Both the position numbers and the translations under genes were made by a program. From Pyrinomonadaceae bacterium (GTDB lineage Bacteria; Acidobacteriota; Blastocatellia; Pyrinomonadales; Pyrinomonadaceae), in contig JACMJZ010000018.1 in assembly GCA_014380365.1 (NCBI GenBank), positions 1 through 62,082 of the forward strand: a DNA stretch of 62,082 bases, written 5' to 3'. Below, in pieces: positions 1,901 through 61,320 of this stretch. The notes beneath the pieces were generated by a model. The model was given only the letters and a program-made list of their open reading frames with translations, was not told the origin of the DNA and made no database searches. Numbering within the stretch: position 1 is the stretch's first letter; each line of letters opens with the position of its first letter.

Positions 1901-3688
1901 ATGAATTCCAGTATCGCTACTCTACGTAATTGGCTTCTACCGGCACTCTTTCTCGTTGTTGTGGCATTGCCCTGCTTCGCTCAAGGGGCAGGCGCCGATG
2001 TGGTGATGGTGCTGCCCTTTGAGAACACGTCTAATCGCCCCGAATACAACTGGGTGGGCGAGAGTTTTGCCGACTCGATTTCGGAGCTCCTCAACAAACC
2101 CGGCCTGCTTGTTGTCACCAGCGACGAACGCCAATCTGTGTATCAAAGGCTGCGTGTGCCGCAGACGGTGCTCCCGTCGCGCGCGACCGCAATCAAGCTG
2201 GCGCGTGAAGCGAAGGCCTCGATGATCGTGATTGGCACTTACTCAGTCACGCTTGCGGAAGCGGAAACCAGGGAAGGCGAAGCTGAGAAGGACAAGGACA
2301 AGTCGTCCGGCGAGGCCTATGTGCAACTTACCGCGCGCGTGATTAGGGTAAACGAGGGCCGCACGCTCGGCGAGGTGTTTGACGGCAGTTGGGCCACTCG
2401 GCAGTTCGACCTGGGCGGACTGCTCACCACCTTGCAGAATATTCAGGGCCGGCTGGCTTATCAGATCCTTTATCAACGCGACAAGGCGCTGCCCTTTTCC
2501 CAAAATCAACTGGTGCAGGAAGCGACTAAAGTCCCGCAGCGTGCTTTTGAAGCCTATGTGAAGGGTGTCCAGTTAAGCGATCGCGATGAAAAGCGTTCCA
2601 ACTATTTGAAAAACGCTATGCGCTATTTTGCGGAAGCGAACGGCGGGGCCATCTATCCGCAAGCCGCCTTTGAGTTGGGTCGCTTTTATATGCTCGAAGG
2701 GAAATGGAAAGAGGCGACGGAGTATCTTACGAAACTGGAGAAGAAAGATCCGCATTATGCGGAGGCGGCTTTCTACGCCGGATTAGGCTACGCAAAGATG
2801 GGCGATCTGGGACATGCCCTCGCGGCCCTCGTTCCGCTCTCTGCCGAAGTGCCCCTGATTGGAATTTATAACAACGCGGGCGCAGTGGCCATTCAGGCCT
2901 CGCGCGAAGAGAAAAAGGAAGAAGAGCGCGTGCGCCTGCTAACTCAAGGCACTTCGTTTCTCGCGCGCGCGGCTGAGTCGGCTCCGGACGATCCGATGGT
3001 TCACTTCAACTACGCGCTCGCCTTGTTTCTCTCGGGCAAATACGCGGAAGCTGCCGATCAACTGAAGCCCGTGATCACGGCCGATCCACGCGACGGCCAG
3101 GCGTATTTTCTCTACGCCAAAGCTCTCGAGAAGATCGGCAAATCCGAAACCGCTACTGCCGCGGACGATCAAGCACGCCGCTTCCTGCCAACTTACGCAA
3201 AGTTTCAAACGCAATGGCAGAAATCACAGACGCTGTCTGGCGTGTCGCCACGGATGCGCGACGTGTTGAATCGCGACGACGTATCCGATCTCGTGAGAAG
3301 GAATGCGATGGCCGCGAGCGGCAACACCTCCGGGACGGAAGACCTCCTCGCGAAAGCAAGGGAGCTCTATCAAGCCGGCCGCGATGAGGAGGCTTTGCCG
3401 GAGTTGCACCGCGTTGTCATGCTCGAACCCACAAACGCCGAGGCCTATCTTCTTAGCGGACGTATCAATCAACGCCGCGGCGATCAGGAGGCGGCAATAG
3501 CGGCCCTCAAGACGGCAATTTTTTGGGATCCGAAACTGATCGACGCGCATATTCTGCTGGGTAGAATTTTCCTCGAACGCGGCGATCGCAGCGAAGCCAC
3601 CAAGTACGCGTCGAGCGCGATGACCATCGATCCCAACAATCAGGAAGCCATCGGGTTGCAGCGTCAGGTGACGATGGGCAAGAACTAG
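1901..3688 (+). CDS. Secreted TPR protein with TolB/FlgO-like N-terminal domain
   Basis: The protein has 595 residues and begins with a signal peptide (hydrophobic residues ~11-27, then a CFAQG cleavage region). Residues ~32-190 contain VVMVLPFENTSN and GESFADSISELL, which resemble the N-terminal domain of TolB/FlgO-like outer-membrane proteins that precedes TPR repeats in many Acidobacteria. Residues ~215-595 are a chain of tetratricopeptide repeats (for example AAFELGRFYMLEGKWKEA and AYLLSGRINQRRGDQEAA). An AAGGAA motif precedes the ATG. It is probably a periplasmic or outer-membrane scaffold. The partner is unknown and no operon mate is evident. Confidence 0.8.
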   Translation: MNSSIATLRNWLLPALFLVVVALPCFAQGAGADVVMVLPFENTSNRPEYNWVGESFADSISELLNKPGLLVVTSDERQSVYQRLRVPQTVLPSRATAIKLAREAKASMIVIGTYSVTLAEAETREGEAEKDKDKSSGEAYVQLTARVIRVNEGRTLGEVFDGSWATRQFDLGGLLTTLQNIQGRLAYQILYQRDKALPFSQNQLVQEATKVPQRAFEAYVKGVQLSDRDEKRSNYLKNAMRYFAEANGGAIYPQAAFELGRFYMLEGKWKEATEYLTKLEKKDPHYAEAAFYAGLGYAKMGDLGHALAALVPLSAEVPLIGIYNNAGAVAIQASREEKKEEERVRLLTQGTSFLARAAESAPDDPMVHFNYALALFLSGKYAEAADQLKPVITADPRDGQAYFLYAKALEKIGKSETATAADDQARRFLPTYAKFQTQWQKSQTLSGVSPRMRDVLNRDDVSDLVRRNAMAASGNTSGTEDLLAKARELYQAGRDEEALPELHRVVMLEPTNAEAYLLSGRINQRRGDQEAAIAALKTAIFWDPKLIDAHILLGRIFLERGDRSEATKYASSAMTIDPNNQEAIGLQRQVTMGKN

Positions 3689-3809: not shown

Positions 3810-4106
3810 ATGGAATCAACCTTCCTTGTCGGTTTCGCTGCCGCAATCCTCGCCGCTGTCTCGCTGTTAACCCTTGCCTTGTGGCGCCACAAGAAGGCGA
3901 GCGGCGGCGAGGTTAGGTTGATCGGCGAACTGGGTCGAGTCGAAACGAAACTTGATCCCGAGGGGACGATAATCGTCGGCGGGGAGATGTGGCGTGCAAT
4001 ATCTAACGATGGCGCCTCCATCGGAGTGGACGCGAGCGTGCGCGTGGTTGGAATGAAAGGGCACCTTATCCTCGTTGAGATTTGTCCCAACCGCCTGCGG
4101 TACTGA
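3810..4106 (+). CDS. Small membrane protein with NfeD-like OB-fold domain
   Basis: The ATG at 3810 gives a 98-residue protein. An earlier in-frame start at 3726 would translate a dispersed repeat and is less likely. Residues ~3-25 form one transmembrane helix ending in WRHKK. Residues ~32-97 resemble the C-terminal OB-fold of NfeD proteins: GELGRVETKLDPEGTI, then GGEMWRAIS, then VRVVGMKGHLILVE. NfeD partners stomatin-like proteins or the ClpP-class protease NfeA in membrane quality control, but no stomatin gene is adjacent. Only a weak ribosome binding site is visible. Confidence 0.7.
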   Translation: MESTFLVGFAAAILAAVSLLTLALWRHKKASGGEVRLIGELGRVETKLDPEGTIIVGGEMWRAISNDGASIGVDASVRVVGMKGHLILVEICPNRLRY

Positions 4107-4170
4107 CAGTGCTTTTCCTGGTCCACTCCTTAACGCTCAATCACGTCTCGATTCCACAAATCATATTCTG

Positions 4171-4186
4171 TGGCACGGAAGCTGCT
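4171..4186 (+). promoter_or_regulatory. Sigma-54 promoter (-24/-12) of small RNA copy 1
   Basis: TGGCACG, four bases, then CTGCT matches the sigma-54 consensus TGGCACG-N4-TTGCW at all but one defined base. GG and GC are in the correct register (first G to first G is 12 bases). The same element stands at 4521. Upstream blocks TTAACG-TCAATC and GATTCCA are also shared by both copies and could be activator sites. Confidence 0.7.
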
Positions 4187-4196
4187 CTAGAGATAA

Positions 4197-4348
4197 CCGG
4201 CACGTACGGAACACTGACGCAAAGTTAATCCGTAACCCCGCCGCCATCTACCTCTGAGCGCCGCCTGCCGCTGCGCCAGCCGCCCGCCGAGCAACCCTTC
4301 AGTGCTTCTCCTTCCTATATGTGGACCCAGTCAGCAATGACTGGGTCC
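4197..4348 (+). ncRNA. Candidate sigma-54-dependent small RNA, copy 1
   Basis: No credible reading frame lies here, yet about 150 nt are conserved in a second copy 350 bases downstream. The start is inferred as 12 nt after the -12 GC. Features in order are a conserved GATAACCGGCA leader, a hairpin pairing TACGGA (4205-4210) with TCCGTA (4229-4234), a C-rich block nearly identical in both copies (CCGCCGCCATCTA through GAGCAACCCTTCAGTGCTTC), and an 11-bp hairpin with a GCAA loop at 4323-4348. No long U-tract follows, so the 3' end is uncertain. Both hairpins differ between copies by pairing-preserving changes. A hit to a known Rfam family has not been excluded. Confidence 0.65.
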
Positions 4349-4393
4349 TCCCGCGTTTAGAGTCATAGTTTCCTCGTCCGGCGCAAACCTATC

Positions 4394-4475
4394 AGTTATT
4401 TCTTTGCGCGTCTTTGCGGCACCTTTGCGTTCTTTGCGGTTTGAATCTTCTTAACCCTCACCGCAAAGGGACAGC
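4394..4475. repeat. TTTGCGG/CCGCAAA dispersed repeat
   Basis: A run of CTTTGCG units is followed by ACCGCAAAGG, an imperfect inverted repeat. Related copies lie at about 11296-11400 and, read in frame, inside comEC at about 18095-18205. Here it separates the two small-RNA copies. Confidence 0.7.
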
Positions 4476-4520
4476 CATCCCTTAACGTTCAATCGACTCT
4501 GGATTCCAAAAGTTTTTCTC

Positions 4521-4536
4521 TGGCACGCAAGCTGCT
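4521..4536 (+). promoter_or_regulatory. Sigma-54 promoter (-24/-12) of small RNA copy 2
   Basis: TGGCACG, four bases, CTGCT, in the same register as copy 1. The four spacer bases differ by one (CAAG against GAAG), which leaves only the promoter-defining bases conserved. Confidence 0.7.
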
Positions 4537-4546
4537 CTATAGATAA

Positions 4547-4696
4547 CCGGCAAGCACGGGAGACCAAAGTAAAGTCAAAACGTGCCCCCGCCGCCATCTA
4601 ACCTCTGAGCGCCGCCTGCCGCTGCGCCAGCCACCCGCCGAGCAACCCTTCAGTGCTTCCTTCCGAACTTGGGACCCAGCCAGCAATGGCTGGGTC
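4547..4696 (+). ncRNA. Candidate sigma-54-dependent small RNA, copy 2
   Basis: This has the same architecture as copy 1. The GATAACCGGCA leader comes first. The first hairpin is GCACG (4554-4558) with CGTGC (4581-4585), a different sequence from copy 1 at the same place. The C-rich block is almost unchanged. The 3' hairpin pairs GACCCAGCCA with TGGCTGGGTC around GCAA at 4673-4696. In copy 1 the corresponding stem position is a T-A pair and here it is C-G, a compensatory change. Between 4697 and lnt at 5032 I see no gene. Confidence 0.65.
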
Positions 4697-5031
4697 TTCC
4701 CGCGTTTAGGCCTGTGATTTTCACGCCCTCCATGATTCTTCTTCTGTTCGCGTCACTTTGTCAGTCATCATTGTGCTAACTGCCTTTCCCGTCGCACTCC
4801 CAGGATTACGCCCAGCCAGTCAACATGCGACGAAATTTGTCACACTGACCGTGACGGTTTCTGTCGTTTTGACCTTTATCCGACGGTATTGAGGGTTCGT
4901 GGATTGACCCGTTCGCGTTTACAGGAAATATTTTTTCGAGAGTCGTCGCCTCAGGTTCTTTTGCAATTTGCTGCGAAAGCCTGTGGGAAGCTTTCGCGCG
5001 CATATCCACTCTTTTGGTAGACTCCTGAGCA

Positions 5032-6684
5032 ATGCAGGACGTTACCTCTAAGCGGACGCGAGAAAGATTAGCGCGGCCGTCAAGATTGACCTCACTCGCT
5101 TCCCGAGTTCGCTCAAATGCGCCGTCACTCACCGATTCTGGAATAGTCGCCATTTCAGCTGCACTGCTCATCCTTTCGTTTCCAGATTTCGAGTTTTGGC
5201 CACTTGCATGGCTGGCCCTTGTTCCTTTCTTTATCGTGATTGCTCGAAAAGCCCGGCCACTGCACTGCTTCATCCTGGGTTGGCTGTTTGGAGGAGCCTT
5301 CTTTTACGGGTCTTGTTACTGGCTCACCTATTCCATGATCCACTTCGGCGGGATGCCTACGCTGCTCGCCTTCCTGGTGCTTATTCCTGCCGCGTTTACA
5401 GCAGGGATCTTTCCCGGCTTTTTCGCGTTAGCTTTGTCGCAGACGATTAGAAAATGGGGCGCTCCTGCATTGTTTCTCGGGCCGGTTTTTTGGACCGCGC
5501 TGGAATGGGCACGACTGGGAATCACCGGTCAGCTCTGGAATGCCATCGGATACTCGCAGGCTTACCAGCCCCTGCTGATTCAACCAGCTCGTTGGGGTGG
5601 AGTGTATCTGGTTGGCTTCCTGATCGTTGCGGTAAACGCCTCCCTGGCTTTTGCTTTCTTGAGGCGCAGCGCGCGGGCTATGCCGAGCGCGGGCGCTACC
5701 ATCGCGCTCGCGGCCACGGTGATCTTCATTTCATCGAGCATCGCCTTCCGGGCAGACGCCGACGCCGTCGAAGCTGATGCCGTAGTGGTGGCTATTCAGC
5801 CTAACGTGCCGATGGATCTGGTGAAGTCTATCGACGACATGCGGAAACTCGCCACTAGTCATTTCGAGATGAGCGAAGCCGCTTTGCGCAATCTCCCAAA
5901 CGATGGAAAACCTCGATTGGTGATCTGGCCTGAGTCGCCCATGAACTTCGGTTACGGAGGCGACTCGCTGCTTCGAGAACGCCTTGCCGCTTTCGTGAGA
6001 ACCAACAACACTTCCCTGCTACTAAACTCGCAGGAAGTTGCCCCCAATGACGGCATTTACAACTCGGCGCTGCTCATAAATGAAGCGGGTAGCCTCGTCA
6101 CTCAATATGATAAGATTCGCTTACTGCCGTTTGGCGAGTATGTTCCGCTGCCACAATGGTTGCCGGGGGCGGGTTTGATAAGAGGAATCGTCGGCGACTT
6201 CACGCCGGGCACGAACTATCGGCTCATGCCGGTGGGAAATGTGCGTGCCGGAGTTTTCATCTGCATCGAGTCGGCTTATCCATCGATCGCGCGCGAGTTT
6301 ACCGGCGAAGGCGCTGACGTGCTGATCAATATTTCAAACGATGGATACCTGGGGCCGACGGCGGTGATGCGGCAACATTTGGCGAATGCGGTTTTTCGCG
6401 CGGTTGAAAACGGTCGGCCGGTGCTGCGTGTGACGAACACCGGCATCACAGCGTTGATTACGCCAACCGGCGCAGTGAAAGATGCGACTGCGGGTTTCAA
6501 GCCGGAGGTCAGGACGTGGCGAATCGCGCGGTCGCAAAGTGAACCGACATTCTATACCGCCCATGGCGATCTGTTTGCAGCCTTCTGCGCAGTGCTTAGC
6601 TTGCTAGCGTTTGTACTTTCATTTAGCCGACGACTTGCGCCGGCCTTTAGAGCGGAGGCCAGGAGTTTAGAGTACAAGCTTTAG
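5032..6684 (+). CDS. lnt: Apolipoprotein N-acyltransferase Lnt
   Basis: The enzyme adds the third acyl chain to the N-terminal cysteine of apolipoproteins at the inner membrane, the last step of lipoprotein maturation. The 550-residue protein has about six transmembrane segments in residues ~38-245, then a periplasmic nitrilase-type domain. The Glu-Lys-Cys triad is visible: E301 in VIWPESP, K361 in YDKIRLLPFGEY and C411 in FICIESAYP. A last transmembrane helix lies near residue 520. The final residues and the stop codon fall inside a dispersed structured repeat (6669-6722), so the element has replaced or trimmed the original C-terminus. The stop lies within the first small hairpin. prfB follows after about 100 nt. 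Confidence 0.93.
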   Translation: MQDVTSKRTRERLARPSRLTSLASRVRSNAPSLTDSGIVAISAALLILSFPDFEFWPLAWLALVPFFIVIARKARPLHCFILGWLFGGAFFYGSCYWLTYSMIHFGGMPTLLAFLVLIPAAFTAGIFPGFFALALSQTIRKWGAPALFLGPVFWTALEWARLGITGQLWNAIGYSQAYQPLLIQPARWGGVYLVGFLIVAVNASLAFAFLRRSARAMPSAGATIALAATVIFISSSIAFRADADAVEADAVVVAIQPNVPMDLVKSIDDMRKLATSHFEMSEAALRNLPNDGKPRLVIWPESPMNFGYGGDSLLRERLAAFVRTNNTSLLLNSQEVAPNDGIYNSALLINEAGSLVTQYDKIRLLPFGEYVPLPQWLPGAGLIRGIVGDFTPGTNYRLMPVGNVRAGVFICIESAYPSIAREFTGEGADVLINISNDGYLGPTAVMRQHLANAVFRAVENGRPVLRVTNTGITALITPTGAVKDATAGFKPEVRTWRIARSQSEPTFYTAHGDLFAAFCAVLSLLAFVLSFSRRLAPAFRAEARSLEYKL

Positions 6685-6786: not shown

Positions 6787-7897
6787 ATGATCGAGACTTT
6801 ATCAATTCAGGATTTAAAAACATCCCATGAAGAGCTAGGAACACGTGTTAGTCAGCTCGGGAGGTTTCTTTGATGTCGCCGCCGGCAAGGAACAGTTAAG
6901 CAGCATTGAGAAAGAAGCCTCGTCGCCGGATTTTTGGAACGATCAGGAGGCAGCTCAGAAACTTCTGCAAAAGCGAACTGTGCTGGAGAAAAAGATTCAA
7001 CGCCAGGAGCGTTTTGAATCTCAGATCGCGGATGGCGCGGTGCTCTTTGAATTTGCCGAGGAAGACGAAGACTCCCTGCAAGAACTCCGCTCCCTCGTTG
7101 AACGCCTGGAACATGAGATCGGCGTTGCGGAAACTGAAATGCTCCTCGGCGGCGACAACGATCAGTTAAACGCCATCTGCACAATTCATCCCGGCGCTGG
7201 CGGGACAGAGTCGCAGGATTGGGCCGAGATGCTTCTGCGGATGTATCTCAAGTGGGCGGAACAGCGTGGCTTCAAGACTGAAATCATTGACTATCAGCCT
7301 GGGGAAGAAGCCGGTATCAAGAGCGTGACGTTTAGAGTTGAAGGAGAATACGCCTACGGTCTGCTGGCGGCCGAAGCCGGCGTTCACCGGCTGGTGCGCA
7401 TTTCCCCTTTTGATCAAGCTGCGCGGCGGCACACTTCATTCGCTTCGCTGTTTGTCTATCCGGAAGTGGACGAGAACATAGAAGTGGAGATCAACGATAA
7501 GGACTTGCGTGTTGACACCTATCGCGCAACCGGCGCTGGCGGTCAGCACATTAACACCACCGACTCCGCCGTTCGCATAACGCATGCGCCGACAGGAATC
7601 GTGGTTCAGTGTCAGAACCAGCGTTCGCAACATCAGAACCGGGCCGTGGCAATGCAAGTCTTGCGTTCGCGTTTATACGAACTCGAGCTGGAGAAACGAA
7701 AAGCCGAGACTGCCGAGCTCGAAGCTAACAGACAGGAGATTTCGTTTGGATCACAAATCAGGAGTTATGTTCTCGCGCCCTATCAACTGGTGAAAGACAC
7801 GCGCACGAAGTTGGAGCGTGGAAATGTTGACGCGGTGCTCGGTGGCGACATCGATGATTTCATCAAGGCTTTTTTGTTGCTGAAGAAAGCGGCCTAG
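6787..7897 (+). CDS. prfB: Peptide chain release factor 2, with programmed +1 frameshift
   Basis: RF2 releases polypeptides at UGA and UAA codons. Translation starts at the ATG at 6787 and runs 28 codons to an in-frame TGA at 6871. Shifting +1 at CTT-T continues into GFFDVAAGKEQ and gives a 369-residue protein of normal RF2 length. The domain order is normal: helical domain 1, the GGQ loop in RATGAGGQHIN, and the C-terminal helix. The peptide-anticodon region lies in the AGVHRLVRISPFD segment. The frameshift autoregulates synthesis, since scarce RF2 lets the ribosome pause and slip at UGA. Reading only from 6845 would miss the true N-terminus. Confidence 0.95.
6861..6873 (+). other. RF2 programmed frameshift site
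   Basis: GAGG, then TTT CTT TGA. The Shine-Dalgarno-like GGGAGG ends three bases before the CTT slip codon, as in the classical AGGGGG-TAT-CTT-TGA site. The base after TGA is T here instead of the usual C. Confidence 0.93.
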
Positions 7898-59799: not shown

Positions 59800-61320
59800 A
59801 TGGCGAATCTTCTAATCGTTGACGATGAATTAGGGATGCGACAGTTTCTGACGCATCTCTTCCAGCGCGAGGGGCACACTGTGCGCGCGGCCGAGAACGG
59901 TCGTGAGGCGATGAAGTTCCTCCGTGAGGCTCCTGCTGACTTGATTGTCTCTGACGTGAGAATGCCGGACATGAATGGCATCGAGTTGCTCGAGTCAGCT
60001 CGCGCGCTGCTGCCAAATGTGGAAGTGGTAATGATGACGGCATTTGCCAACGTCGATACCGCTCGCAAGGCTTTCATGCTCGGTGCGTATGATTTTGTTC
60101 AAAAGCCTTTCGACAACGACGTGCTGAAAGAAACTGTGGCCCGGGCTCTGCAAAAGCTTTCGCTCGTCAAAGAGAAGGAAGCGCTGCTTGAAGAAAACAA
60201 AGTACTAATCCAGGGACAGCGGAGCCGCGGCAAACTCAACAACATCATCGGCCGCTCCCCGAAGATGCAGGCGCTCTACCAAATGATCGAAACGGTGGCG
60301 CAGGTGCAATCGACGGTGCTGGTTACTGGAGAGTCCGGAACGGGAAAGGAGCTGGTCGCTCGCGCCATACATGATTTAAGCCCGCGTGCGGAGCGGCCCT
60401 TCGTATCGATCAACTGCGGCGCTTTCACCGAGACGTTGTTGGAGTCGGAACTGTTTGGTTATGTGAAAGGCTCGTTCACGGGCGCGAATACCAATCGCAA
60501 GGGCCTGTTTGAAGCGGCAAATACCGGGACGATTTTTCTCGACGAGATCGGTGAGATGTCTCCGGCGATGCAGGTAAAACTTCTGCGCGTGCTCCAGGAA
60601 CGAAAGCTGCGGCCGGTTGGCGCCACGGAAGAAACGACGGTTGACACCCGCGTTATAGCCGCGACCAATCGTGACCTGGCCGCGATGGTGAAGGATGGCA
60701 CGTTCCGTGAAGATCTTTATTATCGAATCTCTGTGATTCCCATCGAGCTGCCGTCGCTGCGTGAACGCATGGAAGACATTCCCGACCTCGCCGCGCATTT
60801 CGTGGAGAAGTTCTGCGCCGGAACAGGCCGCACCTTGTCGATTGGCGAAGTCACCGGGCGGTTGCTGGAGAACTACGTCTGGCCGGGCAATGTACGCGAA
60901 CTTGAACACACCATCGAACGTGCAGTGGCGTTGGAAACCACCGGCGCGATTCAACCCGAGCGCCTGCCTGACAGGATTACAAACTACAACCCGCACCTCA
61001 TCGCCGAAACGTTTGAGTTTCCCGAAGAGGGCGTTAACCTTACGGCTCACCTGGACCAACTGGAAAAAACCTACGTCCTCGAAGCGTTGCGCCGCACCGC
61101 CGGAAACCAAACGAACGCGGCCGCACTACTCGGCCTCTCGGTGCGATCTCTGCGGCATCTCCTCGACAAGCACAGCATCCGCGGCCTGACTGCCCAGATG
61201 CGAGATGAACGGCGCAATGCAGACTCGACCCCTCGGCGTCGCGCAACTGACTCAACTCCGCGCCGGCGCGACGAAGACGAAGACGAATCCGAGCTTGCCG
61301 CTGGCGCCGGAGAAGGCTAG
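59800..61320 (+). CDS. pilR: Sigma-54-dependent response regulator PilR (NtrC family)
   Basis: PilR activates sigma-54 transcription of pilA when phosphorylated by PilS. The 506-residue protein has a receiver domain with phosphoacceptor D52 (LIVSDVRMPD), an AAA+ domain with Walker A GESGTGKE (177-184), and the sigma-54-contacting loop GSFTGA at 224-229 (a common variant of GAFTGA). Walker B lies in GTIFLDEIGEM. It also has a FIS-type helix-turn-helix (NQTNAAALLGLSVRSLRHLL) and an unusual ~45-residue tail with a repeated STPRRR motif and acidic stretch. pilA follows. No normal ribosome binding site is visible because the upstream repeat abuts the start. Confidence 0.93.
   Translation: MANLLIVDDELGMRQFLTHLFQREGHTVRAAENGREAMKFLREAPADLIVSDVRMPDMNGIELLESARALLPNVEVVMMTAFANVDTARKAFMLGAYDFVQKPFDNDVLKETVARALQKLSLVKEKEALLEENKVLIQGQRSRGKLNNIIGRSPKMQALYQMIETVAQVQSTVLVTGESGTGKELVARAIHDLSPRAERPFVSINCGAFTETLLESELFGYVKGSFTGANTNRKGLFEAANTGTIFLDEIGEMSPAMQVKLLRVLQERKLRPVGATEETTVDTRVIAATNRDLAAMVKDGTFREDLYYRISVIPIELPSLRERMEDIPDLAAHFVEKFCAGTGRTLSIGEVTGRLLENYVWPGNVRELEHTIERAVALETTGAIQPERLPDRITNYNPHLIAETFEFPEEGVNLTAHLDQLEKTYVLEALRRTAGNQTNAAALLGLSVRSLRHLLDKHSIRGLTAQMRDERRNADSTPRRRATDSTPRRRDEDEDESELAAGAGEG

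Follow-up and report, generated by a model that had tools for sequence, protein, structure and literature searches.

A tandem pair of predicted small RNA genes with conserved structure and sigma-54 promoter elements in a Pyrinomonadaceae genome

Sigma-54-dependent small RNAs are already known as a kind. The Qrr sRNAs of Vibrionaceae are small RNA genes behind TGGCA-N7-TGC sigma-54 promoters, TGGCA-N7-TGC being the canonical sigma-54 promoter motif (PMC10162802). CrcZ, CrcY and CrcX of Pseudomonas and relatives are RpoN-dependent non-coding paralogues (PMC8657755). GlmY and GlmZ of Escherichia coli are related sRNAs, and the sigma-54 promoter of glmY is activated by QseF (PMC7073468). Two RNA motifs of Acidobacteria, Acido-1 (RF01686) and Acido-Lenti-1 (RF01687), are marked as not cis-regulatory (PMC2864571). 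An Rfam-based count from 2022 gave 4 distinct annotated sRNAs in Acidobacteria versus 345 in Proteobacteria (PMC9029176, Table 1).

The window analysed here is a 62,082-nt stretch of DNA from a Pyrinomonadaceae bacterium (contig JACMJZ010000018.1). It contains two neighbouring copies of a folded small RNA gene, each with its own sigma-54 promoter. Copy 1 is located at 4197–4359 and copy 2 at 4547–4708, both on the plus strand, and with their promoters the genes extend over 4171–4359 and 4521–4708. The copies score 156.9 and 166 bits with R1, a covariance model built from 40 copies (alignment A2) of which both are seeds. The RNA is about 160 nt long, the two copies are 84% identical by BLAST, and their starts are 350 nt apart. 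An initial annotation, made from the letters of the window, had described two non-coding copies of about 150 nt, 350 bases apart; both were found where it placed them, and in each copy model position 1 falls on the start that it predicted, 4197 or 4547. The upstream flanks that it called conserved are common to the two copies of the window and, judged by eye, partly shared by other genera. In the genome as a whole (G000; 4.98 Mb, 34 contigs) the covariance models recovered the two copies of the window, and BLAST at E≤1 added three other matches, 18, 22 and 36 bases long, which look like chance.

Rfam includes the Qrr, CrcZ and GlmY/GlmZ families. At gathering score the window gave no Rfam match and the loci of 20 relatives gave 9 tRNAs, none of them over the RNA; at E≤10, only three weak unrelated matches were obtained over 4090–4760. 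The Rfam search proposed in the initial annotation was thereby carried out, and neither a family at threshold over the RNA nor the known RNA or repeat family that would have spoken against its reading was found in that database. Identity with RF01686 or RF01687 was considered and rejected, both being below gathering score in the window and in the 20 relatives' loci and absent at E≤10 over 4090–4760.

Like the Qrr genes, the present copies are small RNA genes, sometimes several, with TGGCA-N7-TGC sigma-54 promoters; unlike them, they belong to a different phylum, have a different structure, are mostly single and have no Rfam match over the RNA. The Qrr-type logic suggested earlier thus holds for sigma-54 control and for the occasional presence of several copies, and fails as an Rfam relation. 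With CrcZ/CrcY/CrcX the family shares RpoN-type control and the existence of paralogous non-coding RNAs; it differs from CrcZ in having no Rfam match, and titration of a protein is here a rival idea. The likeness to GlmY/GlmZ lies in related sRNAs and a sigma-54 promoter (that of glmY), and the differences are the lack of an Rfam match and the constitutive expression of glmZ in Escherichia coli. No description of this RNA was found in the portions of the open-access literature that could be consulted, and the family appears to be new.

The promoter element of copy 1 is TGGCACG-GAAG-CTGC at 4171–4185 on the plus strand (TGGCACGGAAGCTGC; −12 C at 4185) and that of copy 2 is TGGCACG-CAAG-CTGC at 4521–4535, also on the plus strand (TGGCACGCAAGCTGC; −12 C at 4535). 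The initial annotation had reported both in −24/−12 register at these positions. In both, the −12 C is 12 nt ahead of the first conserved RNA base. For the family, 74 copies were compared, leaving out three weak or partial rows (L090, L100 and L068) and one antisense hit in L008; these four rows were left out of alignment A4 and of the promoter, letter, coding, G-U, control and upstream-palindrome counts alike. Upstream DNA was readable for 72 copies, L016 and L034 being the other two. GGCAY-N6-TGC was present within 32 nt upstream of the RNA in 71 of these 72, a count that required GGCA and TGC and left the T before GG free; this T was present in 70 of the 71 elements, though not required. 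The family motif is the same as the canonical one. Its −12 C is 12 nt from model position 1 in 60 copies, 11 nt in 9 and 13 nt in 2. The same pattern was found in 0 of 504 windows of equal size 32–256 nt further upstream and in 9 of 14,400 shuffles of the same 32 nt. The sole exception among the 72 is L076, a syntenic copy in genome G039, which has no −24/−12 element within 32 nt; the absence of the pattern at homologous loci, which the annotation named as grounds for abandoning its reading, was thus not observed. The genome of the window encodes one sigma-54 (rpoN; PF04552, 4.4e-57) and 18 activator domains (PF00158) above 200 bits. With the element at a set spacing in 71 of the 72 readable copies, rpoN and 18 activator domains encoded in the genome and the stems covarying as described below, the assignment of the family to the sigma-54-dependent small RNAs is well supported by sequence comparison. 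Promoter distance, encoded sigma-54 and activators, and a non-coding structure under selection all agree with membership in this kind.

Three hairpins are predicted in each copy, all on the plus strand. In copy 1, the 5′ hairpin P1 occupies 4205–4234, UACGGA (4205–4210) pairing with UCCGUA (4229–4234), and its outer pairs, CGGC (4198–4201) with GCCG (4240–4243), are near-invariant and lack covariation support. The middle hairpin P2 (4254–4279; loop CUGCC) and the 3′ hairpin P3 (4323–4348), a possible terminator stem followed by the tail UCCCGCGUUUA at 4349–4359, are both supported by covariation. Between them, 4280–4322 is a C/U-rich stretch without conserved predicted pairs that carries CC-N2-CCGAGC-N3-CC-N2-CAG and is the proposed contact region. 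In copy 2, P1 lies at 4554–4585, with GCACG (4554–4558) pairing with CGUGC (4581–4585) and supported by covariation; P2 at 4605–4630 and P3 at 4673–4696 are supported by the single-sequence fold as well as by covariation, P3 being followed by the tail UUCCCGCGUUUA at 4697–4708. The corresponding C/U-rich stretch without conserved predicted pairs, 4631–4672, is marked by letter conservation. The paired changes that the annotation read between the copies, UACGGA/UCCGUA against GCACG/CGUGC in the first stem and T-A to C-G in the 3′ stem, are real. Its 3′ hairpin corresponds to P3; its GCAA loop is not a family feature, the loop letters and length varying across the family.

The 27-pair structure was derived by RNAalifold from the MAFFT alignment A2 without structure fitting, and 11 of its pairs were changed on both sides there. 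In A4 (74 copies), which was fitted to the structure of the model and leans towards it, standard pairs occupied 97.8% of cells versus 87.8% in shuffles, 20 of the 27 pairs showed changes on both sides, and covariation was 0.392 versus 0.206 in shuffles. None of 500 shuffles matched the A4 structure in any of five measures, a comparison in which kinship among the sequences can by itself beat shuffles, and slid versions of the structure paired 30–45%. Support from covariation sits in helices 2, 3 and 4, that is, inner P1, P2 and P3: 8 of 9 pairs in P2 were doubly changed, although 21 of 74 copies do not form pair 64-92, and 9 of 10 in P3, where 10 of 74 copies do not form pair 162-176. Folded alone, copy 1 gave z −4.43; copy 2 gave z −1.19, with 27 of 200 shuffles as good and a minimum free energy fold without P1. 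Outside the stems, the letters are best conserved in CCCGCCGCC, which is partly paired and lies where P1 ends, and in CC-N2-CCGAGC-N3-CC-N2-CAG, in the interval from P2 to P3. The letters of CC-N2-CCGAGC are identical in 74 of 74 copies, except the A (72 of 74). The alignment contains 107 G-U cells versus 10 A-C or C-A cells, which places the RNA on the plus strand. As the U stretch lies several nt 3′ of the P3 stem and does not directly adjoin it, termination at P3 is only presumed.

The GTDB family of the window is represented by 119 genomes, of which 53 gave a match in a DNA search (E≤0.001). With R1 at E≤0.01 the matches rose to 104 of 119, a count that includes the genomes from which R1 was built; they comprise 66 of 69 good genomes (at least 90% complete, at most 5% contaminated) and all 29 genera of the family. 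Four of the 104 have weak or short matches: G019 (0.0056), G094 (2e-4), G073 (1.3e-7) and G053 (1.9e-8). At E≤1, model R2, built from 74 copies, had matches in 105 of the 162 class genomes; the one addition, G093 at 0.34, is probably a chance hit, and the same goes for further second matches at 0.07–0.97. R2 found none at E≤1 in the 43 class genomes outside the GTDB family. In a phylum-wide draw of 396 genomes all 28 matches were inside the same GTDB family, with the caveat that the first look of the search tool and stricter filters may miss diverged copies. In the scan of Blastocatellia by covariance model that the annotation called for, all credible matches fell in this one GTDB family at the thresholds used. 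From the 43 genomes outside it, the DNA preceding lnt was read in 23 of 30 loci, one of which, L247, comprises 128 nt only; TGGCAY-N6/7-TGC was present in 0 of the 23, and L235 has one off-consensus GGGCAT hit there.

An exact-pattern scan of named genomes gave, among the matches listed, 117 stretches, of which 63 matched R1 (44 of 80 and 19 of 37). Within this list all 63 are from Acidobacteriota and the 54 non-matching stretches are from other phyla. The carriers listed are Pyrinomonadaceae, Blastocatellia, gp4, Chloracidobacterium, Aridibacter, which we take to be a member of the same group, and Pyrinomonas. These names identify Pyrinomonadaceae and their close kin as the host group; in the NCBI taxonomy Pyrinomonadaceae belongs to Blastocatellia, Acidobacteriota. 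The cultured isolate Pyrinomonas methylaliphatogenes K22 carries the RNA (L205, 123.8 bits with R1). That nearly all good genomes of one group have the RNA, with one sigma-54 element in copies from many genera, suggests a central regulatory circuit in a phylum that has received little study, and the family supplies an exact gene, start site and structure for testing, K22 being one organism in which this could be done.

We consider it most probable, at about two in three, that the two copies belong to one non-coding RNA family of about 145–175 nt that is driven by RpoN and acts in trans as an sRNA. A bacterial enhancer-binding protein would activate the sigma-54 (RpoN) promoter of each copy separately, and each short transcript would end at or just past P3. 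The RNA would form P1, P2 and P3 and leave the conserved C/U-rich stretches between the stems single-stranded. When sigma-54 is active, these stretches may meet mRNAs and/or an RNA-binding protein in trans; Hfq is encoded in G000, and a search of 59 genomes found it in 55, including 42 of 42 good ones. Several observations count against this explanation: the usual copy stays beside lnt, which a purely trans-acting RNA would not need, the three target tests given below were negative, no U run directly follows P3, L076 has no −24/−12 element within 32 nt, outer P1 is nearly invariant, P2 and P3 each contain a pair that is unpaired in some copies, and the fold of copy 2 is unremarkable. Overall, the first interpretation as tandem sigma-54 regulatory RNAs is partly supported. 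A sigma-54 sRNA agrees with the promoters in 71 of 72 copies, rpoN, the activators, covariation and weak coding signs; the tandem design is real in the window and is not a hallmark of the family. By match coordinates, tandem pairs occur in 12 of the 104 matching genomes, namely G044, G045, G074, G112, G118 and seven that share the genus of the window.

The annotation further proposed that the C-rich block pairs with ribosome binding sites (RBS), and three small tests lent this no support. Among 40 genes of the window, examined with simple ORF calling and single-letter shuffles, no RBS preference over shuffles was found (31 and 12 of 40 shuffles were as good for the two stretches). For the neighbours lnt, prfB and the TPR gene, pairing of the RBS windows did not exceed that of random windows taken from their loci. 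A 13-nt query, the perfect complement of the unpaired stretch as it reads in other genera and not in the window, had 58 sites in 49 of 119 genomes; 45 were inside the RNA itself, and the 13 outside it across the 119 genomes, versus 14 for the reversed control, are no excess. In view of the three negative results a protein-binding role may apply. Under such a role, the unpaired CC-rich stretches would bind an RNA-binding protein and titrate it, in the way that CrcZ acts on Hfq/Crc, and pairing with mRNA would not be involved. This reading is itself a version of trans action and overlaps the explanation preferred above. The core letters outside the stems are near-invariant in 74 copies while the stems covary, there is no sign of RBS pairing, and Hfq is present, all of which suit it; the target tests were small, and mRNA pairing could have escaped them. 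We hold it to be doubtful, and a shade more doubtful still is the proposal that this group-wide core RNA might be a structured protein-binding hub for sigma-54 output, working through the CC-rich stretches and not as an antisense sRNA.

The RNA is usually located between a TPR gene and lnt-prfB. In the window these are, all on the plus strand, a gene for a TPR-repeat protein at 1901–3688 (Pfam TPR models), lnt for apolipoprotein N-acyltransferase at 5032–6684 (TIGR00546, 2.5e-78) and prfB for peptide chain release factor 2 at 6845–7897 (TIGR00020, 2.3e-154). A small NfeD-domain gene at 3810–4106 on the plus strand (PF01957, 8.1e-13) lies between the TPR gene and the RNA, as in some other loci. 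Within the locus DNA compared, lnt is downstream in 58 of 64 loci, on the same strand, and the TPR gene upstream in 53 of 64. This arrangement would suit a cis-acting lnt leader, in which sigma-54 starts the lnt-prfB mRNA and the RNA serves as an attenuator or switch in its 5′ UTR, the stem at the 3′ end being able to attenuate. Against it, 6 of the 64 loci have no lnt match; they are extra copies (two in G022 and one each in G029, G039, G105 and G110), their neighbours differ as judged by eye, and each of these five genomes also has a copy beside lnt. The gap from the RNA to lnt ranges from 74 to 605 nt, with a median of 278 nt (n=54) based on extrapolated lnt starts, and where copies stand in tandem, each has a promoter and a 3′ stem to itself. 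Seven genomes from the genus of the window, each represented by its second or only copy, were compared pairwise. Identity was 82–96% in the RNA, 57–90% in the 30 nt before it, 31–55% in the 140 nt further upstream, 33–66% in the gap to lnt and 49–82% in the first 300 nt of lnt. The fall in identity on both sides marks the bounds of the RNA, whose DNA is also better conserved than the beginning of lnt. We therefore consider the leader improbable. Copies without lnt, the weakly conserved gap of variable length and tandem copies with their own promoters favour action in trans, and the extra copies elsewhere in five genomes make a stand-alone trans-acting sRNA the likeliest reading.

The RNA is very probably non-coding, as judged from its reading frames. 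No ATG occurs in 16 of 74 copies, and 52 of 74 have no complete ORF of at least 20 aa, in line with the earlier statement that coding is not supported. Any given frame is open from end to end in at most 18 of 74 copies, a count in which indels shift frames. A short protein-coding or dual-function mRNA might be suggested by the ATG in 58 of 74 copies and the complete ORF of at least 30 aa in 10 of 74; it is very unlikely in view of the ORF counts just given and since the conservation is accounted for by covariation and the G-U asymmetry. The two near copies of the window and the extra copies in five genomes might recall a mobile repeat, a reading that is hardly credible with 1–3 copies per genome, mostly fixed neighbours, and promoter and structure under selection. 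Copies paired within one genome are 71–98% identical.

Several copies are atypical. In G039, the lnt-adjoining L076 (at 3043) lacks the −24/−12 element and the extra copy L077 (at 2941) has one, and a hand-over of function between the two is possible. In G094, the RNA upstream of lnt is reduced to its 3′ hairpin and tail (L100, 2281–2448), either because its body was lost or through an error of assembly; the sequence before this remnant is NfeD-like by eye, and an NfeD search gave no match there. In G029, L090 (2944–3063) is a strongly reduced extra copy; judged by eye, it has lost P2 and still has TGGCAT-N6-TGC, the 3′ hairpin and a stretch reading CCTTCAG. L068 of G019 (3011–3187) is a much diverged copy adjoining lnt; by eye, TGGCAT-N6-TGC lies inside its model match, and its true start is probably further downstream for this reason.

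A palindrome-like element, TTTCCWGGAAA (at least 9 of 11 letters), was found in 22 of 71 upstream regions, L076 also being left out of this count, versus a mean of 3.9 and a maximum of 10 in 200 shuffles, and 20 of the 22 begin 18–21 nt ahead of the −24 T. The two copies of the window do not reach this score. The pattern was picked from these very sequences, which are also related to one another, and is therefore a lead only. An element near TTTCCAGAAAA or TTTCCWGGAAA was seen at a fixed distance before −24 in L012 (1869), L079 (2822), L093 (3034) and others, and in some genera a YAATC motif is visible by eye further upstream of it. Elsewhere in the window, a gene with a sigma-54 activator domain is located at 60244–60747, 55 kb from the RNAs, and 1147–1400 consists of low-complexity repeats with overlapping minus-strand ORFs and runs such as NASQHSTNASQ.
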